Notes under the pieces: generated by a model
What the model saw: only the letters and a program-made list of their open reading frames with translations
Database searches by the model: none
What the model was told of the DNA's origin: nothing
Translations under genes and position numbers: made by a program
NCBI GenBank assembly: GCA_002722245.1
Contig: PBLA01000027.1
Location: forward strand, 124,001 to 188,000
DNA length: 64,000 nucleotides
Direction of reading: 5' to 3'
Origin: Flavobacteriales bacterium
GTDB taxonomy: Bacteria > Bacteroidota > Bacteroidia > Flavobacteriales_C > GCA-002722245
In this document: positions 9,952-42,217 of the stretch, one piece after another
Layout of the letters: every line of letters begins with the position of its first letter
How positions within the stretch are numbered: the stretch's first letter is position 1

Positions 9952-10803
9952 ATGTCCAAAAATTCAATTAATATTATATCCTCAAAAAGAGGATTGTTTA
10001 GCATAAATTTTAAGGAAATTTGGCAGTATAGGGACCTTTTAACTTTGTTTGTTAAGAGAGATTTTATTTCTGTTTATAAGCAAACAGTTCTAGGGCCAAC
10101 TTGGTTTGTTATACAGCCAATTTTAACTACTTTCATTTACACGGTTATTTTTGGAGGTATTGCTGGAATAGGTACTGATGGAATTCCAAAGTTTTTGTTT
10201 TACCTAGCAGGAATAACTTGTTGGGGGTATTTTTCGGAATGCTTTCTTAAAACGTCAAATGTGTTTGTGACAAATACTGAATTGTTTGGAAAAGTATACT
10301 TCCCAAGAATGATCGCACCACTGTCAATAGTGGTTTCAAACCTACTAAAATTTACTGTTCAATTTATATTATTTATTGTGGCCTATTGTTATTATTACTT
10401 AACAGGTACAAACGTACATTTTAACTGGGTTTTAACTATGGTTCCGATTCTTATTTTATTAACGGCCTTGATGGGAATTGGATTGGGAATGGTCATATCG
10501 TCGCTCACCACTAAATACAAAGATTTAAGATTTTTAATTGCTTTTGGTGTTCAGTTAGTGATGTACACTACGCCAATAATTTATCCTTTTTCATTAATCA
10601 AAAACAAACTCGGTGAATATTATTGGCTTGCATATTTTAATCCAATAACACCAATTATTGAAAGTTTCAAATATGCCTTTTTTGGAAAAGGCACTTTAGA
10701 TCTAGCTGGTTTAACTTTTAGTGCGATTTTTGCAATTGTTGTGATGATTGTTGGTACAGTTATATTTAATAAGGTTGAAAAATCATTTATGGATACAGTA
10801 TGA
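9952..10803 (+). CDS. wzm: ABC-2 type polysaccharide export permease (Wzm-like)
   Basis: Inner-membrane half of an O-antigen/teichoic-acid-type ABC exporter. The 283-residue protein has six predicted helices after an N-terminal amphipathic stretch containing YRDLLTLFVKRDF, which in this family contacts the ATPase. The segment YKQTVLGPTWFVIQPI and the later TTPIIYPFSLI are family hallmarks. Its stop overlaps the start of the ATPase gene by 4 bases (ATGA), so the two subunits are translationally coupled. It opens a plus-strand operon that runs to 14539. Confidence 0.93.
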   Translation: MSKNSINIISSKRGLFSINFKEIWQYRDLLTLFVKRDFISVYKQTVLGPTWFVIQPILTTFIYTVIFGGIAGIGTDGIPKFLFYLAGITCWGYFSECFLKTSNVFVTNTELFGKVYFPRMIAPLSIVVSNLLKFTVQFILFIVAYCYYYLTGTNVHFNWVLTMVPILILLTALMGIGLGMVISSLTTKYKDLRFLIAFGVQLVMYTTPIIYPFSLIKNKLGEYYWLAYFNPITPIIESFKYAFFGKGTLDLAGLTFSAIFAIVVMIVGTVIFNKVEKSFMDTV

Positions 10804-12041
10804 GTTGGCAGATTAAAGTTGAGAATTTATCCAAAATGTATCGTCTTGGTGAGGTGGGAACGGGAAGTTTGACTCAAGACTTAAACCGATTTTGGGCTAA
10901 AATAAGAGGTAAAGAAGATCCTTATTCCAAGGTTGCATTAACCAATGATAGAACTCAAAAGGCAAAGTCTGATTTTGTTTGGGCGTTGAGAGACATAAAT
11001 TTCACTGTTAATCAAGGAGATGTGTTAGGTATTGTTGGAAGAAATGGTGCGGGAAAGTCTACTTTGTTAAAAGTGCTTTCTAAAATTACTTCTCCAACTG
11101 AAGGGACGATTACTACTAAAGGAAGAATTGCTTCCTTATTAGAAGTTGGTACTGGTATGCATCCAGAAATGACCGCTCGAGAAAACATTTATCTGAATGG
11201 AGCAATTTTAGGCATGACCAAAAAAGAAATAACATCAAAGTTTCATGATATTGTTGATTTCTCTGGTTGTGCTATGTACATAGACACCCCAATTAAAAGG
11301 TTCTCATCTGGAATGAGAGTAAGATTGGGATTTGCTGTTGCTGCATTTTTAGAGCCAGAAATCCTTGTTGTCGACGAAGTTTTAGCTGTGGGGGATGCTG
11401 ATTTCCAGTCGAAGGCGATTGGGAAAATGAAAGATATTTCTAAGAATAGCGGAAGAACGGTTTTATTTGTCAGCCATAACATGGTAGCTGTTAAAAGTTT
11501 ATGTAAAACTGGAATTTTAATTGAGAATGGAACTGTTAAAGCTCAAGATACTGCCAATAATATAGTTGATTTATACTTAGAAAAAGCCTCGGAAAATTTA
11601 ACTCCAGAAATAAATGTTATAGATCCAAAGTTTGAGAATGATCAAATAAAATTTGAGACCTTAACCGTATATCCAAAGGTGCCGAATATTAGCGAAGATT
11701 TTGAAATTAAATTTAAAATTAAGCTTCATAATGATGGATTGAGTGGTTTAAATATTGCCTTTGATTTAGTTTCTAGCCAAGAGGTGATTGTATTTGGGAG
11801 TGGATTGTTTGCTGAAAGAAATACAGATGGTTATGTTGAGGCAACATGCACAATTCCAAAGAACTTTTTAAATACAGGTGTTTACTATTTGAATATATAT
11901 ATTTCTAACGAGTCTAGAAGAAATTTAATGTCATTAAATGAAGTTGTTTCATTTGAAATAATTGAAGATAATAGAGACTATAACTATTTAGGTAAAGTTA
12001 ACGGCTTAATAAGGCCTCAATTAAACTGGAAAGTGAATTAA
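10800..12041 (+). CDS. wzt: Polysaccharide export ATPase with C-terminal chain-recognition domain (Wzt-like)
   Basis: ATP-binding subunit paired with Wzm. The nucleotide-binding domain (about residues 1-255) has Walker A GRNGAGKST (80-88), signature SSGMR (169-173), Walker B ending DE at 192-193, and switch His226. Before Walker A there is the extended loop typical of Wzt and TagH. A further 150 residues (about 265-413) form an extra beta-rich domain, as in Wzt proteins that recognise the capped non-reducing end of a finished chain before export. The protein is 413 residues; short TagH-like versions lack this domain. One base overlaps the next gene (TAATG). Confidence 0.92.
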   Translation: MSWQIKVENLSKMYRLGEVGTGSLTQDLNRFWAKIRGKEDPYSKVALTNDRTQKAKSDFVWALRDINFTVNQGDVLGIVGRNGAGKSTLLKVLSKITSPTEGTITTKGRIASLLEVGTGMHPEMTARENIYLNGAILGMTKKEITSKFHDIVDFSGCAMYIDTPIKRFSSGMRVRLGFAVAAFLEPEILVVDEVLAVGDADFQSKAIGKMKDISKNSGRTVLFVSHNMVAVKSLCKTGILIENGTVKAQDTANNIVDLYLEKASENLTPEINVIDPKFENDQIKFETLTVYPKVPNISEDFEIKFKIKLHNDGLSGLNIAFDLVSSQEVIVFGSGLFAERNTDGYVEATCTIPKNFLNTGVYYLNIYISNESRRNLMSLNEVVSFEIIEDNRDYNYLGKVNGLIRPQLNWKVN

Positions 12042-12724
12042 TGAAAAAGGTAGCTATTCTTCAATCTAATTATATTCCATGGAAAGGTTATTTTGACATA
12101 ATTAATTCAGTTGATACCTTTATTATTTATGATGAAGTTCAGTATACTAAAAACGATTGGAGAAATAGAAATCAAATAAATACAAAAAATGGTTTGCAGT
12201 GGTTAACAATTCCTGTCAGAGTTCAGAGTTTAGACCAGAAGATTTTTGAAACCAAAGTTTCATTTCCAAAGTGGAATAAAAAGCATTGGAATTCAATAAT
12301 AGCAAATTATGGAAAAGCACCAAATTTTAAGGGATTTAAGGATCGTTTCGAGTCATTGTATTTAGATTGTAAAACAGATTTTTTAAGTGAAATTAACTTG
12401 TCCTTTATAAAGTCAATAAATGAGATTTTAGGGATTGATACAGAAATTATTGATTCTAGAGAATTAGAATTAGTTGGTGATAAGAATGAACGTTTAATAG
12501 AGGCGATTAAAAAGGTGGGTGGTAAAATATATTTATCTGGACCGTCTGCTAAATCGTATCTAAATGAATCCTTGTTTGTTCAAGAAGATATTAGTGTGGA
12601 ATGGAAGAAATACATTGGCTATCCAGAATATCCTTCAGTTCATAACAACTTTCAACATGGGGTTTCGATATTAGATATGATTTTCAACAATGTTGAATTG
12701 TCTAAAGGCCTATTTACTATATAA
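12041..12724 (+). CDS. WbqC-family protein
   Basis: 227-residue cytoplasmic protein of the WbqC family (PF08889), common in O-antigen loci but without a settled reaction. The diagnostic N-terminus is AILQSNYIPWKGYFDII (residues 5-21), then DEVQYTKNDWRNRNQI. The C-terminal part holds YLSGPSAKSYLNE and HNNFQHG. The start codon overlaps the wzt stop by one base and the formyltransferase start follows closely, so it is within the exporter operon. Its position between exporter and amino-sugar genes suggests a part in modifying or transferring the amino sugar (inference). Confidence 0.88.
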   Translation: MKKVAILQSNYIPWKGYFDIINSVDTFIIYDEVQYTKNDWRNRNQINTKNGLQWLTIPVRVQSLDQKIFETKVSFPKWNKKHWNSIIANYGKAPNFKGFKDRFESLYLDCKTDFLSEINLSFIKSINEILGIDTEIIDSRELELVGDKNERLIEAIKKVGGKIYLSGPSAKSYLNESLFVQEDISVEWKKYIGYPEYPSVHNNFQHGVSILDMIFNNVELSKGLFTI

Positions 12725-12725
12725 A

Positions 12726-13388
12726 ATGAAAGTACTTTTTTTTTGTTCGGGTAATGGTGGAAACATGAAGTTTCTTCATTTAGTTTCAAAATTAGATGGA
12801 ATAGGTACTGAATTAAAGGGGATAGAAATTATTGGAATTATAGCTGATCGAGACTGTGGAGCTTTGGAATATGCAAAAAGAGAATCCATGTTTTCATGTC
12901 TGCATTCCTTTGATAGAACAGAAAGAGAGGATTTTAAATTAATCAAGTTGATTAATTCGTTGAATCCAGACTTAATTGTAACAAATGTTCATAAAGTTAT
13001 TTCAAAAAGAGTATTAGACGCCTTTGATGGACAAATTTTAAATGTTCATTATTCTATTTTACCTGCATTTGCAGGGTCTATAGGGATGAAAACAGTAGAT
13101 AACGCTATTAAAGAGAGATGTAGATTTTTAGGTTCGACTTGTCATGTTGTCACAACTGATTTAGATGGAGGGCCTATTCTTAGCCAATCGGTTTTCCCAT
13201 ATAATGGTCAAGAAAATGTTTATAATAGTGTATTTAGAACAGGTGCTCTTGCCCTTTTATCAGGCGTTCTTCAAATGAAAATAGAAATGAAGAATGTTCA
13301 TCAATTAAATGAAATCCAAACAAATCCATTAATTAACATTGATAATTCAGTTTTGAAAAAGGTGTTCGATGAATTATCGTCAAAATAG
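12726..13388 (+). CDS. Sugar N-formyltransferase-like protein (PurN/VioF fold)
   Basis: 220-residue protein with a formyltransferase Rossmann fold, predicted to use N10-formyltetrahydrofolate. The catalytic triad of the family is complete: N106 and H108 in NVHYSILPAF and D147 in DLDGGPILSQ, at almost the same positions as in PurN. Start chosen at ATG 12726, one base after the WbqC stop; the frame stays open upstream to 12690 but that would add a non-homologous extension. Placement before a WecE-like aminotransferase gene in a polysaccharide operon argues for N-formylation of a 4-amino-4,6-dideoxyhexose rather than for purine synthesis. It is shorter than many VioF proteins, which carry a C-terminal domain. 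Confidence 0.82.
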   Translation: MKVLFFCSGNGGNMKFLHLVSKLDGIGTELKGIEIIGIIADRDCGALEYAKRESMFSCLHSFDRTEREDFKLIKLINSLNPDLIVTNVHKVISKRVLDAFDGQILNVHYSILPAFAGSIGMKTVDNAIKERCRFLGSTCHVVTTDLDGGPILSQSVFPYNGQENVYNSVFRTGALALLSGVLQMKIEMKNVHQLNEIQTNPLINIDNSVLKKVFDELSSK

Positions 13389-13389
13389 T

Positions 13390-13397
13390 TAAATTTG
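13390..13397 (+). promoter_or_regulatory. -7 box (TAAATTTG) inside the exporter operon
   Basis: Exact TAnnTTTG match in the 20-base gap after the formyltransferase gene, 11 bases before the ATG at 13409. Possible internal promoter for the aminotransferase. Confidence 0.35.
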
Positions 13398-13408
13398 TTT
13401 TATCGATT

Positions 13409-14539
13409 ATGGAAATTCCTTTTAATAAGCCATTTCTAACTGGTAAAGAGACAAAATATATTGAAAAAGCTGTGTTGTCTCAAAAGATTTGTGGAGATGG
13501 CAACTACACTAAATTATGTCATGAGTTTTTTGAAAATAGATATGGTTTTAAGAAGGCTTTACTTACAACTAGCTGCACAGATGCATTGGAAATGGCAGCA
13601 ATTTTGTTGAATATTCAAAAGGGTGATGAGGTTATTATGCCTTCATATACTTTTGTGTCAACAGCAAATGCTTTTGTACTTAGAGGCGCTAAAATTATAT
13701 TTATAGATTCTATGAAGGATCATCCAAATATGGATGTTAATTTACTTGAAGATGTAATTACGAGTAGGACAAAAGCCATTGTACCTGTCCATTATTCCGG
13801 AATGGCATGCGATATGGATAAAATAATGTCAATTGCTAACAAGCATAATCTTTTTGTTGTGGAAGATGCGGCTCAAGCTATTGATGCTTGCTATAAGGGA
13901 AAGCCCCTTGGTAGTTTCGGGCATATGTCTACATTTTCATTTCATGAAACGAAAAATATTATTTGTGGAGAGGGAGGTATGTTAGTTATAAACGATGAAA
14001 GGTTTATTGAAAGAGCAGAAATAATCCGAGAAAAAGGAACAAATCGAAGTCAGTTTTATCGAGGAGAGGTTAATAAGTATGGTTGGATGGATATAGGTTC
14101 TAGTTTTTTGCCATCCGATGTCATTGCGGCTTTTTTATATGCTCAGTTAGAAAAAATTGAGGAAATTCAATCAAAAAGAAAGATTATTTGGAATAAATAT
14201 TATTCGGACTTAAAACACCTCGAAGATCAAGGCTTGATTCAACTGCCTAAATTACCTAGAGATTGTTCAAACAATGCACATTTATTTTATATGATTCTTA
14301 AAAATGTTGAGGAGAGAAATCATTATTTGAGTCATATGAGGGAAAATGGGGTTAACCCTGTTTTTCATTATTTAAGCCTGCATCGATCCCCTTACTATGA
14401 AGATAAGCATGGAAGTCGAGAACTGCCAGAATCCGATAGGTATACGGAAACTTTAGTTAGGTTACCATTGTTTTTTTCTTTGCAAGAAGACGAAATTGAA
14501 TACATTATTTCAAAGACGATAAACTTTTTCAAAAGTTAA
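13409..14539 (+). CDS. dTDP-4-amino-4,6-dideoxygalactose transaminase (WecE/RffA-like)
   Basis: PLP-dependent DegT-family enzyme of 376 residues. The N-terminus IPFNKPFLTGKETKYIEKA, then LLTTSCTDALEMAA and MPSYTFVSTANAFVLRGA, follow the WecE/RffA pattern, which makes dTDP-Fuc4N from the 4-keto-6-deoxyglucose. Catalytic Lys182 lies in SFHETKNI, Asp153 in VEDAAQAID. It is the last gene of the exporter operon. Next to a formyltransferase it may supply the 4-amino group that is then formylated. It differs clearly from the VioA-like aminotransferase at 2611, so two different amino sugars may be made. Confidence 0.88.
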   Translation: MEIPFNKPFLTGKETKYIEKAVLSQKICGDGNYTKLCHEFFENRYGFKKALLTTSCTDALEMAAILLNIQKGDEVIMPSYTFVSTANAFVLRGAKIIFIDSMKDHPNMDVNLLEDVITSRTKAIVPVHYSGMACDMDKIMSIANKHNLFVVEDAAQAIDACYKGKPLGSFGHMSTFSFHETKNIICGEGGMLVINDERFIERAEIIREKGTNRSQFYRGEVNKYGWMDIGSSFLPSDVIAAFLYAQLEKIEEIQSKRKIIWNKYYSDLKHLEDQGLIQLPKLPRDCSNNAHLFYMILKNVEERNHYLSHMRENGVNPVFHYLSLHRSPYYEDKHGSRELPESDRYTETLVRLPLFFSLQEDEIEYIISKTINFFKS

Positions 14540-15393
14540 ATTTTAAGTCTTATTTATACATTAAAAGGAAAAGTAATAAGTTCATAAAATCTTGGGCTGA
14601 TGTCGAATGTATCAGTATACTGAGAGACAGATTTATTATTATTTTATAAAAGGGGTTCGATTCTGCACCGAATTATCCTAATGGTTACTCAGATGTTTTT
14701 CTGTAAATTGATACAGCAAATAGTTAGAGCGTATTTATTACAAGTAAGTTTTACTTTTAAAATCAATAATCGTCAGATCAATTACATTCAAGAAATCATA
14801 TTAATAAGACTGTAGAGGGAAGTTTGTAATCAATTAGAATTTTCTCTTATTATCCTTTAGTCTGAGGTGTTTTGTAAGAAAAAATGTTTAATCACCAATT
14901 GGTTCTCGAGTAAATGATAACTTTGTAAGACTTTTATATGGGGTTATGTTCCAGATGAATTGAAGTTAGTAGATGATCTTTTAAACTTTTATAAGTTCCA
15001 GAACATAGATATGATTGGGCTTGCATATAAATGTTGTTAAAGAAATAACAATGTTTTTTCTTTAATCACTAGTGCTCGGAATATATAAAACGAAATAGTA
15101 ATATTAACTGTTTTAAGTCAGTTTTTAATTCCGAAATTAAAGTTACCTTAGACACACTTTTTAAGAATAAACCCTTTTATAAATACACTATACAGTCATA
15201 TGAAATCCGTGAGAGTAAATTATAACATGGGAGCCGAAACAATTGATTTAATATTTCGGGGAGAAACTTATTTAGGTGAGCAAAGAATATTCTTACTAAA
15301 TACGATTCATGGTGGAGGGCATAATTTTCAAAACGATACAACTCGAATTTTTTTCGAGGTGAGATTTTGGAGTAACGTAAATAAGCTTTAATT
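14540..15393 (+). pseudogene. 854-base region without an intact gene; probable decayed reading frame
   Basis: No intact gene. Reading frame 2 (codons beginning at 14540) has only about nine stops in 284 codons, though DNA this AT-rich would be expected to give more than twenty. It includes a 62-codon open stretch (about 14624-14810), a protein-like stretch at 14921-15037 containing GYVPDELKLVDDLL, and a final open stretch at 15200-15391 containing FRGETYLGEQRIFLL and GGGHNFQND. The same frame ends 3 bases before the next gene. I could not recognise the family. It may be a former glycosyltransferase or sugar-modification gene broken by point mutations, or simply spacer. Confidence 0.35.
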
Positions 15394-18927: not shown

Positions 18928-19836
18928 ATGTTTTTAAAAGATAAAAAACCAGTAATTATTTCAGGTTCACCAAGGTCAGGCTCCACTTGGATTGGTAGAG
19001 TTTTAGAAGTACACAAGAATACTAATTATGTTCATGAACCATTTAATATTGGTATAGATCGTCCCAATAATCCATTCAAGTATTGGATGGAAGGTGTATT
19101 TAATGAGCAAAGTAAAAACCACCTTCGTGAAGTAAAAGCCTATTTGGATTCTTTTTATTCCATTGATAATAAATACATAAGGAAGGAGCTAAATGGTGTA
19201 TCTAATTTGAATGATTTTCGTGATTCATTTTGGAGATATAGAGAACGAAGAAAGAAAACTACAATTTTAAAGGATCCGATTGCTTTTTTTGCCTTAGATT
19301 GGTTGTCTAAGAATGTTACTGATAAAATTATTGTTACTATTCGACATCCAGCATCAGTTGTTGCTAGTTTAAAGCAAAAACAGTGGGGATATGAGTTTGA
19401 GCAAATGTTGAAGCAACCAATTTTAATGGAAAAATATCTTTTGCCATTGAAGTCAGAAATTGAAGAGTTTGCAAAGTCAGAAAAATCAATTGTTCAACAA
19501 GGCGCCTTGCAATGGAAATGTGTCTACTACACTAATCTTGAATTTATGAAGGCTCATCCACATTGGCTTTATGTAACAAATGAGAATCTATCACTAAATC
19601 CGTTGCAGGAATTTGAGAGAATTTTAAATTATATTGATTTACCTATTACTGAAAATGTTAAAAATCACATAATCGCCTCTACAACTGCAAGGAAAGGCGA
19701 GGAGACTGATTTAGTTAGAGACTCTCGAAGTAATATAGATAAGTGGAAAAAGCTTTTAACGAATGAAGAGATTGCGTACATAAAGTCCTCAACAGAGGAA
19801 GTATGGTCGCACTACTACAATGAAAGTGATTGGTAG
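18928..19836 (+). CDS. PAPS-dependent sulfotransferase
   Basis: 302-residue cytoplasmic sulfotransferase. The 5'-phosphosulfate-binding loop is SGSPRSGSTW (residues 12-21) and the 3'-phosphate site is IRHPASVVASL (138-148). The C-terminal RKGEETDLVRDSRSNIDKW matches the RKG region of the family that also holds the 3'-phosphate. Context implies sulfation of a polysaccharide or of a lipid-linked intermediate. Spacing to neighbours is about 30 bases on each side, all on the plus strand, so it probably belongs to the 16614-21602 operon. No PAPS synthesis genes are in the window. Confidence 0.85.
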   Translation: MFLKDKKPVIISGSPRSGSTWIGRVLEVHKNTNYVHEPFNIGIDRPNNPFKYWMEGVFNEQSKNHLREVKAYLDSFYSIDNKYIRKELNGVSNLNDFRDSFWRYRERRKKTTILKDPIAFFALDWLSKNVTDKIIVTIRHPASVVASLKQKQWGYEFEQMLKQPILMEKYLLPLKSEIEEFAKSEKSIVQQGALQWKCVYYTNLEFMKAHPHWLYVTNENLSLNPLQEFERILNYIDLPITENVKNHIIASTTARKGEETDLVRDSRSNIDKWKKLLTNEEIAYIKSSTEEVWSHYYNESDW

Positions 19837-22684: not shown

Positions 22685-23635
22685 ATGAAATTTTTTGTAG
22701 AATATCCAGAGAATATTCTTTCTAATTCTAATTTGGAAGATGAGTTTAGTGATGTTGATATTAACAGATTAGAAAAAAAGCTTGGAATTAAGAAAAGACG
22801 CATTGTAGCTAAGAATGAAACAGCGTTAGATTTAGCTAAAAAGGTGTGTTCAAAAATATCAGCAGAGGATCTTGATCAAATTGATTTTTTACTCTATTGT
22901 ACCCAAACTCCCGAATACTTTTTGCCTTCAACCGCCTGTGTTTTACAGAATGAAATAGGATTAAGAAAAACGTGTGGGGCATTTGATTTTAATTTGGGTT
23001 GCTCTGGATATATTTATGGTCTTGCAATGGCTAAATCGTTTTTGCAATCGGGGGTTGCTACCAAGGTGCTTTTCGTTACTTCAGAAACATATTCAAAGCA
23101 TCTTCACAAAGAGGATTGGTCGAATAGGTCGATTTTTGGTGACGCTGCGACTGCTACAATTATTGAAGATAAAGATGTGAAAAAAATTGGATTGTTCGAT
23201 TTAGGAACAGATGGAGAAGGTGCTGAAAACTTAATAGTTAAAGGGGGTGCTGGAAAATCAAATTTTGAACAGAATTTCGAAAGGGATAATCTTTTTTTTA
23301 TGAATGGTCCAGAAGTGTTCAAATTTACTCTTGAAAATGTTCCAATAACCGTTCAATCTTGTTTGGATAAAAACGGGAAATCAATGGAGGATATCGATTA
23401 CGTTATTTTCCATCAAGCCAACGCTTACATGCTAAAAAAGTTAAGAAAAAAAGTAAATGTTTCAGATGAAAAATTTTATATAAATGTTGAGTCGATTGGA
23501 AATACTGTTTCTAATACCATTCCAATTGCAATTGACGATTCATTGAAAAGAGGTTTGATAAAGTCCGGCGATTGTTTACTTTTGTGTGGGTTTGGAGTAG
23601 GATATTCGTGGGGTTCAACATTAATTACAATTTAG
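22685..23635 (+). CDS. 3-oxoacyl-ACP synthase III (FabH-like KASIII)
   Basis: Condensing enzyme of 316 residues joining an acyl-CoA starter to malonyl-ACP. The catalytic triad is visible: Cys106 in FNLGCSGYIYGL, His243 in FHQANAYML, Asn273 in IGNTVSN. The C-terminal LLCGFGVGYSWGS closes the fold. It is not in a fatty-acid operon but in a polysaccharide region, directly followed by its own ACP, an SDR reductase and an acetyltransferase-like gene. This points to a dedicated short acyl chain for decorating a sugar, such as a 3-hydroxyacyl group (inference). A role in lipid synthesis is less likely here. Confidence 0.9.
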   Translation: MKFFVEYPENILSNSNLEDEFSDVDINRLEKKLGIKKRRIVAKNETALDLAKKVCSKISAEDLDQIDFLLYCTQTPEYFLPSTACVLQNEIGLRKTCGAFDFNLGCSGYIYGLAMAKSFLQSGVATKVLFVTSETYSKHLHKEDWSNRSIFGDAATATIIEDKDVKKIGLFDLGTDGEGAENLIVKGGAGKSNFEQNFERDNLFFMNGPEVFKFTLENVPITVQSCLDKNGKSMEDIDYVIFHQANAYMLKKLRKKVNVSDEKFYINVESIGNTVSNTIPIAIDDSLKRGLIKSGDCLLLCGFGVGYSWGSTLITI

Positions 23636-23643
23636 AATTAGTT

Positions 23644-23880
23644 ATGACAAAAGATTCGTTTTTTTCAGAATTAGAAGATTTACTAGAGTTAGAAGGTGAA
23701 TTAGAGTCCAATGCCAATACATTAATTGAGGATGTATTAGAAATAGACTCTTTAGCACATATCACAATTATATCATATGTGAAAGATGAATTAGGTTTAG
23801 ATATTAAGGCTGAAGATTTTTCAAAATTTGAGACGTTAGGTGATCTCGTTCAAGCCATAGGGGACGATAATTTTAAGTAA
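23644..23880 (+). CDS. Acyl carrier protein
   Basis: 78-residue acidic protein with the phosphopantetheine site Ser36 in EIDSLAHITI and a following DELGLDIKAEDF helix. Start set at ATG 23644, 8 bases after the KASIII stop; the frame is open further upstream but only inside the KASIII gene. It is not a copy placed with general fatty-acid genes, so it is probably the private carrier for the acyl chain made by the neighbouring KASIII and reduced by the SDR. Confidence 0.9.
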   Translation: MTKDSFFSELEDLLELEGELESNANTLIEDVLEIDSLAHITIISYVKDELGLDIKAEDFSKFETLGDLVQAIGDDNFK

Positions 23881-23881
23881 A

Positions 23882-24637
23882 GTGATAGACCTTTCAGGTG
23901 AAAAATATTTAATCACAGGATCAACTTCAGGTATTGGGATGGAAGTGGCTCAGTTGCTAAATTCTCTTGGTGCATTCACTGTTATATGTGGTAGAAATGA
24001 GGAAAAGTTAAATGAATTAAAAGAAAATTTGACTAAACCAGATTATGCTGAGGTATTCGTATTGAATCTTGCAGATTCATTTTCAGCTAAGTCTTTTTTA
24101 AAATTAAGTGTTGATAAAAGTGGCCTATATACCGGTATGGTTCATTGTGCAGGTATGGATATTACTAAGCCATATAAACTTTTAAAACAAAAAGATTTTG
24201 ATCTTTTGAATAGATTAAATATTACCGCTCCTTTTCAATTAGCTAAAGAGTTGGTAAATAAATCTATTTTTTCTCAAAAAGGAGGCAGTATAGTTTGGAC
24301 AAGCTCTGTTATGGGAAGTCTTGGACAAAAAGGTAAAATAGCGTACTCATCAAGTAAAGCATCAGTTGAAGGGTTGGTAAAGTCATTTGCTTTAGAGTTG
24401 GCACCAAAAAAAATCAGAGTAAATAGTATAGCTCCAGGAATAGTTAAAACACCACTAACGATTGATTTATTTGAAAAAATTTCTTCGGAAGCAGTTCAAG
24501 AAATTGAAAACATGCATCCTTTGGGATTTGGGGAGGTGGAAGATATAGCTTATCTGGTAGCTTTTTTAGTGAGTAATAAATCTAAATGGATTACAGGAAC
24601 TACTCACTTTATTGACGGTGGATACCATATTCAGTAA
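23882..24637 (+). CDS. Short-chain dehydrogenase/reductase, FabG-like ketoreductase
   Basis: NAD(P)H-dependent reductase of 251 residues. The cofactor loop is TGSTSGIG (12-19), the catalytic Tyr155 and Lys159 lie in IAYSSSKASVEG with the serine in IVWTSSVMG. The C-terminus WITGTTHFIDGGYHIQ is typical FabG. GTG start at 23882, one base after the ACP stop, is the only start consistent with the fold. It probably reduces the 3-ketoacyl group on the ACP to a 3-hydroxyacyl. Its stop overlaps the next start by one base (TAATG), indicating coupled translation. Confidence 0.88.
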   Translation: MIDLSGEKYLITGSTSGIGMEVAQLLNSLGAFTVICGRNEEKLNELKENLTKPDYAEVFVLNLADSFSAKSFLKLSVDKSGLYTGMVHCAGMDITKPYKLLKQKDFDLLNRLNITAPFQLAKELVNKSIFSQKGGSIVWTSSVMGSLGQKGKIAYSSSKASVEGLVKSFALELAPKKIRVNSIAPGIVKTPLTIDLFEKISSEAVQEIENMHPLGFGEVEDIAYLVAFLVSNKSKWITGTTHFIDGGYHIQ

Positions 24638-25581
24638 TGAAAGAATTTAAGTTTACTAGATTATCAGATTCAAATTTTGGATTATTAGTCCCTTTATATA
24701 AAAAAGCATTTGGAAAAGAAATAGATGAAGATTTTTTGAAAAAAAAATTTGATACTTCTATAATTTGTGGATTAAAGAATTTTGGTTTTTTAGCAATTCA
24801 TTCAAATGGAGATGCAGCTGCATTTTATGGAGTATTTCCCTGTTATTGTGTGAAAAATGATCAAAGGTTTTTAGTAGCTCAATCCGGAGATACTATGGTT
24901 GACCCCTTACACCGAAGAAAGAAACTTTTTATTAAGCTAGCTGAGTTGACTAATGAGCTCTGTAAAGAACACAAAATAAAAGCTATATTTGGATTTCCGA
25001 ATATATTTTCACTACCTACGTTCACTAAAAAGTTGGGATGGACTCATACACATAGTATTGAGGCCTTTCACTTTAAGGTAAAATGTTTGCCATTCATTAG
25101 ATTACAAAAGTTATTTAAACTTAAAAATGATTTTTTCTTAAATTATCAAAATACTCTATTAAGGTTGAACTCAGTTCAAAAAACAAACTTTACCTCAATA
25201 TTATTATCTAACAATTTCTTTTCAATAGAGCGCGATGCATCCTATTTTTCTTACAAGGTTAATCCGAAAAAATATATATTATTAATTAACGGAGTTTATT
25301 TATGGGTTAAGCTTACTCCAATGTATTTATTAATTGGTGATATTAGCGAATGTAGTACTCAAGATTTTGAAAAAGTAAAAATGGGATTGAGAAAACTCTG
25401 TTTTAAACTCGGTGTACCTCATTACAGATTTCAAACCTCTCCTGGCACAACCTTCCATGAAATGCTGAAGAACTCTTTAACCAAGCTAGAAAATGAATAT
25501 CCGGCTTGTGGAATCTCTTTTGATCAAAAGTTTGATATATCGAACTTGAGTTTTATTTTGGCTGATAACGATACATTTTGA
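24637..25581 (+). CDS. GNAT-family N-acyltransferase-like protein
   Basis: 314-residue protein. The N-terminal half looks like a GNAT domain: FKFTRLSDSNFGLLVPLYKKAF, then an AQSGDTMVDPLHRRKKLF segment (about 88-105) matching motif A, the acyl-CoA/ACP pyrophosphate loop, and IFGFPNIFSLPTFTKKLGW with the later helix. The C-terminal 140 residues are of unknown fold. Being locked between the ACP-linked reductase and a deacetylase with overlapping codons, it is the best candidate for moving the ACP-borne acyl group to a sugar amine (inference). Family assignment is moderate. Confidence 0.68.
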   Translation: MKEFKFTRLSDSNFGLLVPLYKKAFGKEIDEDFLKKKFDTSIICGLKNFGFLAIHSNGDAAAFYGVFPCYCVKNDQRFLVAQSGDTMVDPLHRRKKLFIKLAELTNELCKEHKIKAIFGFPNIFSLPTFTKKLGWTHTHSIEAFHFKVKCLPFIRLQKLFKLKNDFFLNYQNTLLRLNSVQKTNFTSILLSNNFFSIERDASYFSYKVNPKKYILLINGVYLWVKLTPMYLLIGDISECSTQDFEKVKMGLRKLCFKLGVPHYRFQTSPGTTFHEMLKNSLTKLENEYPACGISFDQKFDISNLSFILADNDTF

Positions 25582-26594
25582 TGTTTAATAAACTCGTTAT
25601 AAAACTTTGTTACAAGATACCATTCTTCGCTAAATTCTTTTTAAAGGGAAGAGGTTTTGTTTTCATGTTGCATAGGGTTCTTCCACAAGAAAAGAGGGGA
25701 TTTGATTGGAATAAGAGTTTAGCGATATCTCCTGAGAGTTTAGAGGAATGGATTAAATTTTTTAGAAAAAAAGGATTTGATATTGTTTCAATGGATGAAG
25801 TGTGTCAGCGAATAAAGACAAAAAAAGGGAAAAAGTTTATTGCTTTTACAATGGACGATGGTTATAAAGATAATTTGTATAACGGATTACCAATTTTTAA
25901 AAAATTAAATGTGCCATGCACCATATATGTTTCAAATTGTTTTCCTAACAATCATGCTGTTTATTGGTGGTATTTTTTAGAGGATTACATAAAAAAAAAT
26001 AATACTATCGATTTGAAAGAGATCGGGATCACTTACAAGAAGACTTTTTCAGATTCAGAAAAATTTATTGCATACAATGAAGTAAGAGAATTATTGAGGA
26101 AATCAGATTATGGCACTCAATTAAATTTTGCTTTAAAAATTTGTAAAATAAAAGATCTCAAACAAATGAATAGATCTTTCAATTTAACTTGGGATGAAGT
26201 TAAAAGATTATCTGAAGACCCATTAATTACAATTGGTGGACATACAATTCATCATATAAGTTTAAAGAATCAATCTAATGCTGTTTGTAAACATGAAATT
26301 AATAAAGGAACACAAGAATTGAAAGATAAAATAGGAGAGACAATAAAGCATTTTGCTTATCCTTATGGTTCAAAAGATGATTATTCAATAGATTTAATTG
26401 AGCTCTTAGAGAAGAATAACTATAAATCAGCCGTCATTAATCATCCAGGAAGTATTTTGTCTAATTCACGAGAAGCTCTTTATAGTATTCCTAGAATGGG
26501 GTTAACAGATGAAACGTCAATTGGGAAAATTAATGATTTATTTTCTGGTAGAGTTCATTTGAATTTTAATGGAGTGTCAAAAGAATATATATAA
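25581..26594 (+). CDS. Polysaccharide deacetylase (NodB domain)
   Basis: 337-residue carbohydrate esterase 4-type protein. The metal-binding motifs are TMDDGYKDN (D92, D93) and GGHTIHHISL, where both histidines of HxxxH are present; FAYPYGSKDD is the third motif. The N-terminus (about 1-30) may be a weak membrane-associating helix; no clear signal peptide. ATG 25581 overlaps the previous stop by one base; a TTG just upstream was not chosen. It could remove an N-acetyl group from a sugar so that another acyl can be attached by the upstream enzymes (inference). Confidence 0.85.
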   Translation: MFNKLVIKLCYKIPFFAKFFLKGRGFVFMLHRVLPQEKRGFDWNKSLAISPESLEEWIKFFRKKGFDIVSMDEVCQRIKTKKGKKFIAFTMDDGYKDNLYNGLPIFKKLNVPCTIYVSNCFPNNHAVYWWYFLEDYIKKNNTIDLKEIGITYKKTFSDSEKFIAYNEVRELLRKSDYGTQLNFALKICKIKDLKQMNRSFNLTWDEVKRLSEDPLITIGGHTIHHISLKNQSNAVCKHEINKGTQELKDKIGETIKHFAYPYGSKDDYSIDLIELLEKNNYKSAVINHPGSILSNSREALYSIPRMGLTDETSIGKINDLFSGRVHLNFNGVSKEYI

Positions 26595-26595
26595 A

Positions 26596-27531
26596 ATGGA
26601 TGTTTCGATTATAATAGTAAACTATAAAACTCCTAAATTACTTTTAGATTGTATAAGAAGTATTTATCATTTTACTAAAGATGTTTCATTTGAAATTATA
26701 GTTGTAGATAATAATTCAGAAGATAATAGTAAAAGTACCATATTAAGAGAATTCCTCGATGTGAATTGGATTGATATGGAGTATAACGCAGGTTTTGGTA
26801 GAGCCAATAATAAGGGTATTGATGTTGCTAAAGGGAGATATACTTTACTTTTAAATTCAGATGTGGAACTTTATGAAGACGCCATATCTTTAACGCTTGA
26901 TCATTATAAGTCATTAGAACTTAAGCAAAAAGTAGGCCTGGTTGGTTGTCAAATTAAACATAAAAATGGGAAACTTCAACCTTCCTGTAATTACTATTGG
27001 GCAGGATTAAGGGAGGTTATCGAAGAACACCCTATTGGAATAAAAATTCTTCAACATTGGCTTAGGATAAAAAAGTTGAGGAGTAGAGATAAGTATTTGA
27101 ATTTGAGTGTTAATCATAAAATAACGTGGTTAGGGGTTCCGTTTGCCTTAATCGACTCTGAAATTATCAAATCTTTTAAGTTTGATGAGGATTTCTTTTT
27201 ATATTCAGAGGATGAAGAATTAAATTTCAGGTTATCGAAAAACGGATATTCTTCATTTTTTTTCTCTGGAGCAGGTGTTTATCATCATATAGGAGCAAGT
27301 TCAGAAAATAACAATAAAAGGGACCTGCAAATTTTTTATTCAAAATTGCAATTTGTAAAAAAGGCATACGGTAGTCTATACTTTTGGATTTATTGTAAGT
27401 TATTAACTTCTTGTTTTAAATGGAATAGTAAGTTAGATAGTACAGGTTCCAAGTTTTATAAAATTGAAGAAATGAATAATTATATTGATGAGAGAGGAAT
27501 GTTGAATGTTTACAAAAATTTTCGTGACTGA
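26596..27531 (+). CDS. Glycosyltransferase family 2, rhamnosyltransferase-like
   Basis: 311-residue GT-A protein resembling WbbL-type rhamnosyltransferases. It has DVSIIIVNYKTPKLLLDCI, VVDNNSEDNS, NAGFGRANNKGID, and the metal site LLLNSDVEL near residue 85. LYSEDEELNFRLSKNGY supplies the ED catalytic region. Start chosen at ATG 26596, one base after the deacetylase stop; an upstream in-frame ATG (26569) would overlap the deacetylase end. The last 22 bases overlap the convergent membrane-protein gene. Confidence 0.88.
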   Translation: MDVSIIIVNYKTPKLLLDCIRSIYHFTKDVSFEIIVVDNNSEDNSKSTILREFLDVNWIDMEYNAGFGRANNKGIDVAKGRYTLLLNSDVELYEDAISLTLDHYKSLELKQKVGLVGCQIKHKNGKLQPSCNYYWAGLREVIEEHPIGIKILQHWLRIKKLRSRDKYLNLSVNHKITWLGVPFALIDSEIIKSFKFDEDFFLYSEDEELNFRLSKNGYSSFFFSGAGVYHHIGASSENNNKRDLQIFYSKLQFVKKAYGSLYFWIYCKLLTSCFKWNSKLDSTGSKFYKIEEMNNYIDERGMLNVYKNFRD

Positions 27532-29027: not shown

Positions 29028-29789
29028 ATGCAGATGAAAATATTTGTTACCAACCTTAATGGATTTGACGATCGTAGGCATTGGATCAAAACTCAATTTA
29101 AAAAGTTTGACTTAGACTTTGAGTTTATTGATTGTTTTGACGGGAGAAAGTGGGAGGATGATGATGTAAAGAAAATTGTCACAAATGAATTTTTTGATTA
29201 TCACAAGAGAAAAGAATCTTGGGTCACTAAAGGGGCAATTGCAGCTACTTTAACACACGTTGAAAGAATTTATAAACGGATGGTGGAAGAAAATATTGAG
29301 TATGCTTTATGTTGTGAAGATGATATAAAATTGAGCAAAGATTTTAAAGAAAAGCTTCAAATAATTGATCAATATATTAATCGTGTAAGTTTTGAGGGTG
29401 TTTTGTTGCTTCATTTTTTTCTTAGTCAATCAACAAAATTGTCCGATTTAGAAAAAGTTCAGTTAGATAGACAAACAGCTGTGTATAAACTACCTAGAAA
29501 ATTTAAAGTTGGATCTGGAGCTGGTTATATTATTTCAAGAAAAACTGCAAAACAGCTAATTCAGGACCAGTCACCAATTAAAAGAATAGCAGACTGTTGG
29601 AATGATCATCCTATTGATAATGTTAATTTCGCTTATCCTGTAATGATAAGAACTGGAGTTTTCTCAACAACATTAGGTTACCAAGAAAATATTTTAAGCA
29701 AAATAACTAAATTAATACCCGAAAATATTAGAATGTTTTTTCGCATGAAAAAATTAATAAGAAAAGAAGAAAATAATATTCAGAGATGA
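29028..29789 (+). CDS. Glycosyltransferase family 25 (LPS-type)
   Basis: 253-residue GT25 enzyme, a family of galactosyl- or glucosyltransferases in LPS synthesis. MKIFVTNLNGFDDRRHWIK opens the fold, WVTKGAIAATLTHVERIY (about 65-82) is the conserved GxxACxxSH-like segment with Ala in place of Cys, and CCEDDIKL (EDD 97-99) is the metal site. GSGAGYIISRKTAKQL matches the GT25 YxxS/T region. Starts at ATG 29028 or 29034. Overlaps the next gene by 4 bases (ATGA), which means coupled translation with the acyltransferase. Confidence 0.85.
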   Translation: MQMKIFVTNLNGFDDRRHWIKTQFKKFDLDFEFIDCFDGRKWEDDDVKKIVTNEFFDYHKRKESWVTKGAIAATLTHVERIYKRMVEENIEYALCCEDDIKLSKDFKEKLQIIDQYINRVSFEGVLLLHFFLSQSTKLSDLEKVQLDRQTAVYKLPRKFKVGSGAGYIISRKTAKQLIQDQSPIKRIADCWNDHPIDNVNFAYPVMIRTGVFSTTLGYQENILSKITKLIPENIRMFFRMKKLIRKEENNIQR

Positions 29790-30337
29790 GTTTTTATTCT
29801 AGGAATGAACTTTCAAAATTAGGATTTAAAAGTATTGGAGAAAATGTTCTTGTTAGTACCAAATGCTCTATTTATAGCCCTAATGAAATCGTACTAGGAA
29901 ATAATGTTAGGATTGATGATTTTACGATCCTATCGGGTAGTATAAGAATTGGAAATAACGTCCATATTTCTGCCTTTTGTGGATTATATGCTAGAAATGG
30001 TATTGAGATAATGGATTATAGTGGTTTATCGCCTAGGTCAACAATTTTTTCAGCTATGGATGATTTTTCTGGAGAGTTTCTTATTAATCCTACGGTGGAT
30101 AATCACTTAACAAATGTGGTTGGCGGTAAAGTAGTTATGGAGAAATTCACTCAAGTTGGAGCTCATTCAGTTGTATTTCCTAATGTTAAAATTAAGGAAG
30201 GCTCAGTAACAGGAGCTTTTAGTTTAGTATTAAAAGATTTGGAAGGATGGTCAATTTATGCTGGTATTCCAGTAAAGAAGATTAAAAATAGATCAAAAGC
30301 TTGTTTGAATAAATTGAATAACATACCTGAAGTTTAA
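29786..30337 (+). CDS. Left-handed beta-helix acyltransferase (WbbJ/LacA type)
   Basis: 183-residue hexapeptide-repeat protein, predicted to O- or N-acetylate a sugar with acetyl-CoA. Repeats run from about residue 35: IVLGNNVRIDDFTIL, IRIGNNVHISAFCGL, IEIMDYSGLSP, and later FTQVGAHSVVFPNVKIKEGS, ending with GIPVKKIKNRS. The histidine in VGAHSVVFP is the usual catalytic position. Four-base overlap with the GT25 gene suggests that it modifies the sugar added by that enzyme. Substrate unknown. Confidence 0.85.
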   Translation: MSFYSRNELSKLGFKSIGENVLVSTKCSIYSPNEIVLGNNVRIDDFTILSGSIRIGNNVHISAFCGLYARNGIEIMDYSGLSPRSTIFSAMDDFSGEFLINPTVDNHLTNVVGGKVVMEKFTQVGAHSVVFPNVKIKEGSVTGAFSLVLKDLEGWSIYAGIPVKKIKNRSKACLNKLNNIPEV

Positions 30338-30533: not shown

Positions 30534-31658
30534 ATGGAAAAATTGAAAATATTACATTTAGTTCCAAATCTTGCAATTGGAGGTGCAGAAAGGATATGTG
30601 TAGATATTTGTGAATCGCTTTTTAAAAATAAGGTACATGTTGAGATTATAATTTTTGATAAAAAAATGGAACTTTCTTTGAAAGATGTGAAAATTACATT
30701 TTTTAATCTGTTAAAAAATTTCTCATTACGAAATCATAATACAGAGGAGTTTAAAAGATTTTTGCAATATGTTAAATCATTCAACCCAAATGTTGTACAT
30801 ACACACCTTTATTCTGCAGAGTTGATTTGGAAATTGACAAAGTTAAAGGTGCCAACGGTTTTTCACTTACATGACAATATAAAAGTGTTCTCTCCATTTA
30901 GAGAAAGTTTCTTTAGGAAGTCAAGTTATACCATGTTCTACGAGAAATTATGGTACAAAAGGCTTAAAAGAATACAACCAACTCATTTTTTAACAATTTC
31001 AAGAGATACTAGTTGTTTCATTAAAAAGACTTTAAATATCAAAAGGAATGAAGAAACATTGCTTCCAAATGCAATAAATTGGGATAAGTTTTATGCACCT
31101 TTAGAAAACAAAAGTTTATCGTCGATTGAACTTATCACGGTTGGCAGTTTGAATGCAAATAAAGATCAGAAATTCTTAATAGAGGTAGTACGTCAATTAA
31201 AAGACTTTACTAAAAAGTCAATTAATTTAAATATTGTAGGTGATGGTCCTCTTCGAGGCGAACTAGAGGCATATGCAAATCAATTAGGGTTAAGAAGTCA
31301 GGTTAATTTTGTTGGTAAGGTAGGTAATCCCGAGGATTATCTAAAAAAAGCGAATATATACGTGCATTCAGCTATCAGCGAGGCTTTTGGTTTAGTTTTA
31401 GTTGAGGCAATGGCTTCAGGTTTACCAGTTTATTCAACAGATGGGGGAGGAAATCGTGACTTAATTGAAAATGACTTCAATGGTAGAATTTATACCAAAA
31501 GAGATCCCAAAAAAATGGCAAGAGATATTTCTGAGTTATTTGACAACAAATTGAAGTACTCTGAATTAGCAAAAAATGCACAAGATTTAAGTAGAGGATA
31601 TAAGTTAGAAATTTATACTAAAAAATTAATTGAACTTTATATTTATTTAATAAAGTAA
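30534..31658 (+). CDS. Glycosyltransferase family 4
   Basis: 374-residue GT-B retaining glycosyltransferase. N-terminal KILHLVPNLAIGGAERICVD has the GGAE acceptor loop; the C-terminal domain starts near residue 197 with LITVGSLNANKDQKFLIEV. The E-x7-E motif lies in SEAFGLVLVEAMASGLPV, with GGNRDLIE behind it. It starts 196 bases after the acetyltransferase gene and overlaps the convergent asparagine-synthase-like gene by 16 bases at its end. Donor unknown. Confidence 0.9.
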   Translation: MEKLKILHLVPNLAIGGAERICVDICESLFKNKVHVEIIIFDKKMELSLKDVKITFFNLLKNFSLRNHNTEEFKRFLQYVKSFNPNVVHTHLYSAELIWKLTKLKVPTVFHLHDNIKVFSPFRESFFRKSSYTMFYEKLWYKRLKRIQPTHFLTISRDTSCFIKKTLNIKRNEETLLPNAINWDKFYAPLENKSLSSIELITVGSLNANKDQKFLIEVVRQLKDFTKKSINLNIVGDGPLRGELEAYANQLGLRSQVNFVGKVGNPEDYLKKANIYVHSAISEAFGLVLVEAMASGLPVYSTDGGGNRDLIENDFNGRIYTKRDPKKMARDISELFDNKLKYSELAKNAQDLSRGYKLEIYTKKLIELYIYLIK

Positions 31659-33499
31659 TTTCTCACCCAAATATGGAACACCAAAACTGCATATAATTTA
31701 TGTCCATTTGATTTTCCATCAAGTTGGTCATTCCAAATTTTTCGTATATAATCATAATTTAAATCAATCAAATTTTGTTTTTTTTCCAAAACTAATTCTT
31801 CGAATATTTCTCTCCAATTTGTAATTAGCCAATTATCTATGGGAATTGAAAACCCTGTTTTTGGTTTGTTTAATATTTCATTTGGAAGTAAATCAGAGGC
31901 AAGACCTTTGAGTATTCCTTTAAGATTTAAATTAGGGATTAATATTTCTTTATTTAGTGTTTTTATATAGTTAAAAAGTGTGTCCTCCAGAAAAGGTGAT
32001 CTTATTTCCAACGAGGCAAACATTGAAGCCCTGTCAATTTTTACTAAATAATCATTTAAGAGTCTTGTACGGATACATCCATAATATATTGTTTTAAATA
32101 GTTCGTTCTCGTTATAATCAGTTTCATCAATTTTTTGTTCAAATGATTCAATTAATGAAAAATTTATGTCGGAATTAAAAAGAGCGCTAATTTCATTTTC
32201 TTTAAAACCAAGATTTCGATTCATCTCTCTAGCGCAGAATAATTTTGGATTGTTTTGTAAAGAAATAAGTTTCTTTAGCTGAGCTATTGGGATCTTTTCT
32301 AAGATTGGAACAAGTGATTTTATTTGATTGATCTTATTTTTCAAATTATCAAACTTGTATGCTTGAATATATGTTTTGTTACCACAAAATAATTCATCAC
32401 CACCATCTCCAGATAAAACTACTTTTTGGTGTTTAGAAACAATTTTAGAGATTAAGTAACTTGGAATCATTGATGAGTCAGCAAAAGGCTCCCCAAATTC
32501 TAAAATTAGTTTTTCAATGTCAATATCATTTGAATTAACAATTAATTCATGATGTTGCGTATTGTATTTTTTTGCCACCAAATTTGCAAATTGTCTTTCG
32601 TCAAACTTGCTGTCTTCAAAACCAACTGTGAAAGTGTTTAGGTTTTCAGTAAATTGTTTCGATAAACTAACAATTAATCCTGAGTCAATACCTCCACTGA
32701 GGAATGCTCCAACAGGGACATCAGCTTGTAATCTTGATTCAATTGCATCAGAGAGTAAATTTTTAACCCTTTTTTGAGGGTCTTCTGTTTTATAGTTCGG
32801 GTGATTTATAGTCTCTTGATATAAATCAATATACTTTATGTATTCTATTTTTGAATTTCGATATTTAATACAATAACCAGGATCAACCTGAAGAATTTCA
32901 TTAAAAATAGTTTGTGGTTGAGGAAAAGATAATTCAGAAAAATAGTATCTCAACCCATCCTCGTTAATGTGAAATTTATAAGGTAAATGACTAAAACTAC
33001 GAATGTCACTACTAAATGAAATATGGTTGTTGTTTCTGTAATAATATAGTGGTTTTTTTCCCCATCTATCGCGTGCAAGATATAGAGTGCCTGAATCCTT
33101 ATTAAGAATAGCAATAGCAAACATCCCGTTAAGTTTTTTAAACGTTTCCTCGGGTTCATTTTTTTGAAGCAATTCTAATATAACCTCTGTGTCTGAGTTG
33201 GTATGGAATTTTGATCCAGATTGAATTAAATCCTTTCGAAGTTCTCTAAAGTTATATATTTCACCATTAAAAATAATTTGCCAAGAACCTTTTGACATTG
33301 GTTGATTAGCGGAGTCTTGAAGATCAATTATACTTAATCTATGATGTGCAAGACCATAAAAATTTTTTTCGTCAAATCTTCCAGATTGTAATCCGAATGC
33401 ATCAGGTCCTCTGAATTTATTGTATTGAGAAAATTGTTCAAGAAAATCATTTGAAGTTAAAGAATAGTTTGAATCAATTATCCCAGCAATACCACACAT
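31643..33499 (-). CDS. Asparagine synthase-like glutamine amidotransferase, copy 1
   Basis: 618-residue AsnB-type protein. Met is followed directly by Cys2, the N-terminal nucleophile of the glutaminase, with RGPDAFG, HHRLSIIDL and FNGEIYNF in the first 210 residues. The synthetase domain has the ATP-pyrophosphate loop SGGIDSG (268-274) and the later DGGDELFCGNK. In sugar loci such proteins (WbpS type) amidate the carboxyl group of uronic acids rather than aspartate. Single minus-strand gene, its 3' end overlapping the GT4 gene by 16 bases. A second copy lies at 42218; the two differ over their whole length. Confidence 0.85.
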   Translation of the reverse strand: MCGIAGIIDSNYSLTSNDFLEQFSQYNKFRGPDAFGLQSGRFDEKNFYGLAHHRLSIIDLQDSANQPMSKGSWQIIFNGEIYNFRELRKDLIQSGSKFHTNSDTEVILELLQKNEPEETFKKLNGMFAIAILNKDSGTLYLARDRWGKKPLYYYRNNNHISFSSDIRSFSHLPYKFHINEDGLRYYFSELSFPQPQTIFNEILQVDPGYCIKYRNSKIEYIKYIDLYQETINHPNYKTEDPQKRVKNLLSDAIESRLQADVPVGAFLSGGIDSGLIVSLSKQFTENLNTFTVGFEDSKFDERQFANLVAKKYNTQHHELIVNSNDIDIEKLILEFGEPFADSSMIPSYLISKIVSKHQKVVLSGDGGDELFCGNKTYIQAYKFDNLKNKINQIKSLVPILEKIPIAQLKKLISLQNNPKLFCAREMNRNLGFKENEISALFNSDINFSLIESFEQKIDETDYNENELFKTIYYGCIRTRLLNDYLVKIDRASMFASLEIRSPFLEDTLFNYIKTLNKEILIPNLNLKGILKGLASDLLPNEILNKPKTGFSIPIDNWLITNWREIFEELVLEKKQNLIDLNYDYIRKIWNDQLDGKSNGHKLYAVLVFHIWVRNYFIK

Positions 33500-39197: not shown

Positions 39198-39262
39198 AAT
39201 AGAGAATGTCAAAATTAGTAATTAAGGACAATTAATTAAATAAAATCATAGGGATTATTCAT

Positions 39263-40424: not shown

Positions 40425-40980
40425 AAACAAGATTAAATATTTGCTTAATTCAAGCATCAAACCAGAAATGATAGGTTATACTAATTGGAATTCAGAGAAA
40501 AGAATAGGATTAAGAATTAGTAATTTCTCTCATTTATCGAATGCAAGGGAAATTATTTTGAAAGATTATGTTTTTATAGGTCATTTCAATTATTTGGACG
40601 GACATAGTGGTTTGGAGATTGGAGAAGGTGTGCAAGTGAGTAATTATGTAACAATAGCCACTCATTCTTCACATAACGCGATAAGGATGTTTGGGAAAAA
40701 ATATGGGAAATTAAACAAACATGATATAATTCAAAAGGGAAAGGTTGAAATTGGTGATTACACATACGTTGGGCCACACGTGGTGATAACCCCTAATACG
40801 AAAATAGGAAAGGGATGTATTATATCAGCTTTTTCCTTTGTAAAGGGAGATATTCCAGATTACTCTATTGTAAGAGGGATTCCAGGCGAAATAATAGGAA
40901 CGACAAAAGATATTGATAATGAATTTTTAAAAAAATACCCGGACTTGGAGGAAAGTTATTATCAGAGTAGGAATTTTTAG
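40402..40980 (+). CDS. Left-handed beta-helix O-acetyltransferase (Maa/WbbJ type)
   Basis: 192-residue hexapeptide-repeat acetyltransferase. REIILKDYVFIGHFNYL begins the coil, LEIGEGVQVSNYVTIATHSSH (near residue 75-95) has the catalytic-type histidine, and VEIGDYTYVGPHVVITPNTKI, then ISAFSFVKGDIPDYSIVRGIP end the helix. A WlbB-type N-terminus is absent, so it is not the missing acetyltransferase of the ManNAc3NAcA pathway. Overlaps the GT4 gene by 23 bases. Confidence 0.85.
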   Translation: MGLLLRVKNKIKYLLNSSIKPEMIGYTNWNSEKRIGLRISNFSHLSNAREIILKDYVFIGHFNYLDGHSGLEIGEGVQVSNYVTIATHSSHNAIRMFGKKYGKLNKHDIIQKGKVEIGDYTYVGPHVVITPNTKIGKGCIISAFSFVKGDIPDYSIVRGIPGEIIGTTKDIDNEFLKKYPDLEESYYQSRNF

Positions 40981-42203: not shown

Positions 42204-42211
42204 TACTTTTG
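42204..42211 (+). promoter_or_regulatory. -7 box (TACTTTTG) for the asnB-like / M1 peptidase pair
   Basis: Exact TAnnTTTG match, 6 bases before the ATG at 42218, giving an almost leaderless transcript. Confidence 0.5.
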
Positions 42212-42217
42212 TCACCT

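Follow-up and report, generated by a model that had tools for sequence, protein, structure and literature searches.

The six-gene module and its conservation

The window, a 64,000-nucleotide stretch of contig PBLA01000027.1 from a marine Bacteroidota bacterium, contains an ABC-transporter-type O-polysaccharide locus. Within this locus, six genes at 22685-27531 lie head to tail on the forward strand and encode a KASIII condensing enzyme, an acyl carrier protein (ACP), a FabG-like short-chain dehydrogenase/reductase (SDR), a tandem-GNAT acyltransferase, a CE4 deacetylase, and a GT2 glycosyltransferase (Table 1). An earlier note on this DNA described adjoining genes for a KASIII with a Cys-His-Asn triad, an ACP, an SDR, a GNAT-like protein, a NodB deacetylase, and a GT2, and this is confirmed; the spacings from KASIII to GT2 are 8, 1, -1, -1, and 1 bases, with a maximum gap of 8 bases and two 1-base overlaps. 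The catalytic residues are intact in the KASIII, the SDR, the ACP (a DSL motif, the serine of which is residue 36 counted from the ATG), and the CE4 protein (D/D/H/H).

All six genes are also contiguous in two congeneric genomes, G002 (L018/L032) and G003 (L019/L036), and six-gene contiguity is thus found in three of the five genomes of the genus examined. A neighborhood search in Bacteroidota for KASIII, ACP, SDR, GNAT, and NodB together, which the earlier note had proposed as a check, recovers the full set, and since two further species of this genus carry it, the arrangement is not due to chance. The gene order in G003 is CE4-GT2-(inverted GNAT)-KASIII-ACP-SDR; because all six genes stay together despite the inversion of the GNAT gene, the linkage has survived rearrangement. 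A KASIII match is absent from the two other genomes of the genus, one of which is only 74% complete, and searches of the family and the order (10 genomes for the order) found no further cassette-bearing genomes.

The two halves of the module differ in their divergence. The housekeeping FabH proteins of the three module-bearing genomes are 94-95% identical, and the window proteins share 60-61% (KASIII) and 41-45% (GNAT) identity with those of G002 and G003. Between G002 and G003 the identities are 84/95/86% for KASIII/ACP/SDR and 40/46/51% for GNAT/CE4/GT2. A conserved donor unit and a diversifying glycan-side unit fit what is expected if one acyl group is placed onto different glycans.

Table 1. 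Features of the module and of the surrounding O-polysaccharide locus, in window coordinates
Feature	Position	Strand	Remark
KASIII condensing enzyme, 316 amino acids, C106-H243-N273	22685..23635	+	polysaccharide-cassette clade, not housekeeping FabH
Dedicated ACP, 78 amino acids, phosphopantetheine serine in IDSLAH	23644..23880	+	PF00550, 28.6 bits
FabG-like SDR, predicted 3-oxoacyl-ACP reductase, GTG start, S138/Y155/K159	23882..24637	+	
Tandem-GNAT acyltransferase, 314 amino acids, ends in DNDTF, P-loop G96 replaced by K	24637..25581	+	PF13527, 35 bits
CE4 (NodB-superfamily) de-N-acetylase, PgaB/IcaB/PplD-like fold	25581..26594	+	PF01522, 71 bits
GT2 glycosyltransferase, third member of the GNAT-CE4-GT2 unit	26596..27531 (alternative start ATG 26569)	+	PF00535, 65 bits
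Wzm/Wzt-type ABC transporter of the O-polysaccharide locus	9952..12041	+	context
Amino-sugar decoration unit distinct from the module (WbqC-like protein, formyltransferase, DegT aminotransferase)	12041..14539	+	context
Hexapeptide (LbH) acyltransferases	29786-30337; 40402-40980		
Sulfotransferase	18928-19836		same locus
FemAB-like protein	38229-39212		same locus
Asparagine-synthase-like proteins (two)	31643-33499; 42209-44050		same locus

The KASIII-ACP-SDR cassette

The KASIII features both ACP_syn_III domains (PF08545 and PF08541) above cut-off and scores 260.6 bits against NF006829 (cut-off 249). It does not qualify as a housekeeping FabH, since it reaches only 239.7 bits against TIGR00747 (cut-off 292.1) and, like all cassette KASIIIs in the trees, it is placed outside the FabH clade (support 100/100). 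Family searches located a separate housekeeping FabH in the same genome in a plsX-fabH-accB context as well as one further PF00550 ACP of the housekeeping type. The KASIII and ACP of the module are therefore dedicated copies, and the description of the ACP as private is borne out.

Relatives of the module KASIII are found in 40 of 395 genomes of the class (E<=1e-75) and, at a stricter threshold (E<=1e-95), in 19 of 395 genomes of the phylum sample. Three layouts are observed. In the first, KASIII-ACP-SDR or KASIII-ACP-KASb-SDR is accompanied by a PglD/LbH (hexapeptide) acyltransferase, usually by DegT, and often by a PglC-like phosphosugar transferase (L172, L173, and L237-L245; L246 and L247 are incomplete). 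In the second, KASIII-ACP-SDR is flanked by glycosyltransferases and LbH proteins of ~190 amino acids (L171, L233-L236). The third has the order KASIII-ACP-KASb-SDR-GT2-small GNAT (PF13302) and occurs in L174-L189 (e.g., L174:7673-12371); this operon appears to encode a separate pathway for an acylated glycan. In several of these loci it adjoins a large membrane protein, which contains TPR repeats in L174. The window-type KASIII is placed near the first two layouts with a support of 99/95, or 91/90 in a wider tree.

PglD and DegT are the commonest partners of KASIII-ACP-SDR cassettes. The cassette is a modular, recurring acyl-donor kit of Bacteroidota polysaccharide loci and hence is not new here. 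Its recurrence in such loci, separate from FabH, supports the earlier proposal that this glycan locus encodes a small synthase dedicated to making a 3-hydroxyacyl-ACP. The earlier note had also named lipid or resorcinol synthesis neighborhoods as the finding that would speak against it; the flanked KASIII relatives mostly adjoin glycosyltransferases, sugar acyltransferases, or sugar aminotransferases, which does not refute the proposal.

The tandem-GNAT acyltransferase

The GNAT protein matches PF13527 only; NCBIfam has no family for it, the NodA family is unmatched, and a sequence search of the PDB returned nothing significant. An AlphaFold2 model built with 74 homologues has a mean pLDDT of 94.6 and a pTM of 0.90. 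The structural check that had been suggested for this protein thus yields a GNAT fold: Foldseek matched the model over most of the chain, in both lobes, to the Eis-like GNATs 4my3, 3n7z, 2ozg, and 2hv2 and to N-myristoyltransferases (NMT) with TM scores of about 0.5-0.6 and identities of 10-14%. The C-terminal half, previously listed as unknown, is on this model a second GNAT-like lobe of the Eis/NMT architecture. Eis-type acetyltransferases and NMT share with the window protein the tandem architecture, and a C-terminal residue may be the catalytic group in the window protein as well. They differ in that Eis features a third, SCP-like domain and acetylates aminoglycosides and peptides, whereas NMT uses myristoyl-CoA as donor and peptides as acceptors.

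The C-terminus carries a nearly invariant DxD[TIV]F motif, in which D312 is present in 74/74 sequences, D310 in 99%, and the last residue is Phe in 72/74 and Trp in 2/74. In NMT the carboxylate of the C-terminal residue (L455) serves as the base, and the same role has been proposed for that of Eis (F402) (PMC4964394). By analogy, the terminal motif probably places the C-terminal carboxylate of the window protein in the active site.

The P-loop is the second distinctive feature. Of the 72 homologues that lack the cassette, 71 have Gly at position 96, where the three cassette-linked GNATs have Lys, Asn, and Lys; the glycine is lost only in this trio and in one other sequence. The GNAT P-loop normally binds the pyrophosphate of CoA, and loss of the glycine therefore fits an acyl-ACP donor. 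Together with the adjacent ACP gene, the sequence change is a hint that the window GNAT may use acyl-ACP.

The CE4 deacetylase and the GNAT-CE4 pair

The CE4 protein has the NodB fold together with the catalytic and metal-binding residues of the superfamily. D93, D94, H222, and H226, which supply the catalytic Asp and the metal-binding Asp-His-His set, are invariant in 59 sequences. The model (pLDDT 87.6) matches the fold of S. pyogenes PplD, PgaB, IcaB, and BC0361. Its N-terminus is a low-confidence helix with no evident cleavable signal, which is consistent with a cytoplasmic or membrane-surface enzyme.

A GNAT profile search returned 80 loci from named genomes, mainly from Bacteroidota and also from Legionella, Herbaspirillum, and others. 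CE4 directly adjoins GNAT in 64 of the 78 loci in which the GNAT was called (24 of 27 in the class sample). CE4 was left out of the query, and 64/78 is a lower count, since automatic gene picking missed a CE4 next to GNAT in L065 and L079. This adjacency supports the earlier proposal that an amine-exposing and an amine-acylating enzyme are coupled. No ACP or KASIII was found in GNAT loci other than those of G002 and G003, apart from one marginal ACP match in L085 (E=0.006). Crocinitomicaceae-like loci (L033, L037-L040, L042, and L045) feature a similarly ordered ABC-type O-antigen cluster that carries GNAT-CE4-GT2 without the cassette, which indicates that the pair came first and the cassette was added to it later.

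Some members of the family are found in other settings. In Mucilaginibacter and Dyadobacter loci (L051, L054, L063, and others), CE4-GNAT lies beside a conserved block in which Pfam identifies an amidohydrolase and a methyltransferase and inspection by eye suggests radical-SAM-type proteins; these loci seem to encode another glycan pathway. The O-antigen locus L045 contains a second tandem-GNAT copy (13826-14764), which groups with L102 in a separate clade. Scanning viral contigs turned up no relatives.

The surrounding O-polysaccharide locus

The locus also encodes many glycosyltransferases, sulfotransferases, and a UDP-GlcNAc 2-epimerase, and there are two DegT genes in the window. Its gene content is that of an exported, heavily decorated polysaccharide, the decoration probably being reflected in the sulfotransferase, FemAB-like, and asparagine-synthase-like genes.

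Comparison with known systems

The rhizobial nodE/F/G and nodA/B/C genes resemble the module in that they encode a KAS, an ACP, a ketoreductase, an ACP-dependent N-acyltransferase (for the window GNAT, use of ACP is only a prediction), a NodB-superfamily deacetylase, and a GT2. NodE is FabF-like. The Nod system is unlike the module in that NodA is a shorter protein of another family, NodC synthesizes chitin processively, and the product is a secreted oligosaccharide with a long fatty acyl group; the window GT2 scores 20 bits against NodC (cut-off 550). The order in which NodB deacetylates first and NodA then acylates from ACP is established (PMC5080398). In the Caulobacter holdfast system, the GNAT HfsK was suggested to acylate amines exposed by the cytosolic deacetylase HfsH (PMC5362036); however, hfsK is encoded away from hfsH, HfsK is a c-di-GMP effector, and there is no accompanying acyl synthase. 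By analogy, the proposed module would work like NodB-NodA with a dedicated ACP and like the HfsH-HfsK proposal, but it is a member of neither system.

The O-antigen R1 genes wfpC-wfpG of Flavobacterium psychrophilum comprise two KAS genes, one ACP gene, and genes for a reductase and a PglD-like transferase and were tied in 2019 to an NMR-determined 3,5-dihydroxyhexanoyl amide, the gene assignment being a prediction (PMC6519341). Both systems combine a KAS, a dedicated ACP, and a ketoreductase, adjacent to each other within an O-polysaccharide locus, with a predicted ACP-bound hydroxyacyl group for an amino-sugar amide. In F. psychrophilum, the two KAS account for a C6 dihydroxy product, the acyltransferase is PglD-like, and the amino sugar is of the PglE/PglF type, whereas the window features one KASIII and CE4, with a tandem GNAT in the place of the PglD-type hexapeptide N-acyltransferase. 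The new parts are the combination, in which tandem GNAT and CE4 replace PglD and DegT, the acyltransferase architecture, and the P-loop change; each half is known or recurring. In the open-access literature, no paper was found on GNAT-CE4-KASIII modules in O-antigen.

Proposed pathway and alternative explanations

From the computed gene content, catalytic residues, conserved linkage, and folds, we infer the reaction steps, the acyl group, the ACP (not CoA) donor, and the sugar acceptor of the following pathway. On the dedicated ACP, the KASIII would join a short acyl-CoA starter to malonyl-ACP in a condensation, and the SDR would reduce the condensation product to a 3-hydroxyacyl-ACP. Because the operon encodes a single condensing enzyme and a single reductase but lacks a dehydratase, the simplest product would be 3-hydroxybutyryl-ACP; from a branched starter, the 3-hydroxyacyl group would be branched as well. 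The two-KAS logic of F. psychrophilum points the same way, as one KAS would imply one condensation and hence 3-hydroxybutyryl if the starter is acetyl-CoA. On the cytoplasmic side, CE4 would strip the N-acetyl group from one hexosamine of the lipid-linked glycan, and the tandem GNAT would acylate the exposed amine with the ACP-borne hydroxyacyl group, its C-terminal carboxylate probably acting as the general base. The GT2 would then add a sugar at or next to the acylated residue before export by the Wzm/Wzt ABC transporter. Deacetylation followed by acylation would serve a purpose only where the incoming acyl group is not acetyl or is attached at a different place. The whole model, a private donor line (3-hydroxyacyl-ACP) and a private acceptor line (CE4 then GNAT) in one operon, is held to be slightly more probable than its negation.

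Several observations weigh against this model. Catalysis by the GNAT C-terminus is an analogy, since the Foldseek TM scores are modest and the identities low. The three cassette-linked GNATs are monophyletic (99/96), so that the P-loop change is one event and possibly coincidental to the cassette. The GNAT family is mostly paired with CE4 without ACP genes, which makes acyl-CoA the default donor of the family. Additionally, in L044 (8768-11931) the gene immediately before the GNAT encodes a DegT, and there is no CE4 in 20.9 kb, a layout that suggests that the GNAT can use an aminotransferase-made amine and that an amine source other than CE4 is possible.

The L044 layout also favors the main rival, in which DegT makes a 4-amino (or 3-amino) nucleotide sugar that the GNAT then acylates, as proposed for PglD/WfpG in F. 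psychrophilum, and CE4 acts on another residue. The prevalence of PglD and DegT among cassette partners and the two DegT genes of the window speak for it as well. We nevertheless consider it unlikely, since the 181-kb module-bearing contig of G002 has no DegT match, the conserved GNAT neighbor across phyla is CE4, not DegT, and the window DegT belongs to a separate unit together with WbqC and a formyltransferase, the latter already providing the amine made there with an N-acyl group. Of the two amine sources offered by the earlier note, the deacetylase, which travels with the GNAT, is thus retained and the aminotransferase is disfavored. Alternatively, KASIII-ACP-SDR could make an O-acyl group or other ester that is moved by one of the two LbH acyltransferases of the locus, with GNAT-CE4 as a separate unit that uses cellular acyl-CoA. 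The cassette and the GNAT-CE4 unit are indeed distributed independently with different divergence rates, and LbH proteins lie beside the cassette in the second layout described above; however, the cassette is contiguous with GNAT-CE4-GT2 in all three module-bearing genomes, even after the GNAT inversion, none of the three has a matched LbH gene adjoining the cassette, and the P-loop change coincides with the presence of the cassette, which together leave this explanation with a rather small probability. It is highly improbable that the module is only a passenger in the polysaccharide locus whose product is a lipid or a free small molecule (of the resorcinol, flexirubin, or N-acyl type). KASIII relatives do make secondary metabolites, and weak DarB-type matches were obtained, but resorcinol/DarB-type chemistry was rejected because the DarB and StlD models score 45-54 bits against cut-offs of 450-550; no aromatase/cyclase or aryl-acyltransferase was seen, and the cassette relatives sit in glycan loci.

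Implications

A broader proposal is put forward more tentatively and may well prove wrong. A tandem-GNAT family that uses its C-terminal carboxylate for catalysis and stays in permanent partnership with CE4 across several phyla would carry out glycan N-acyl exchange; in this genus it would have switched from acyl-CoA to acyl-ACP through loss of the P-loop glycine after capturing KASIII-ACP-SDR, so that an O-antigen locus would contain a counterpart of Nod-factor N-acylation that was put together independently. The P-loop glycine provides a one-residue hypothesis for the choice between CoA and ACP donors. If the private donor and acceptor lines proposed for the operon are right, they would give a function to an uncharacterized and widespread GNAT-CE4 pair of Bacteroidota, Legionella, and other Proteobacteria. 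The number of KAS genes may predict the acyl chain length in such cassettes, and the non-acetyl N-acyl groups of surface polysaccharides would become predictable from sequence, with the KAS count pointing to chain length and hydroxyls and the acyltransferase type to the kind of acceptor.

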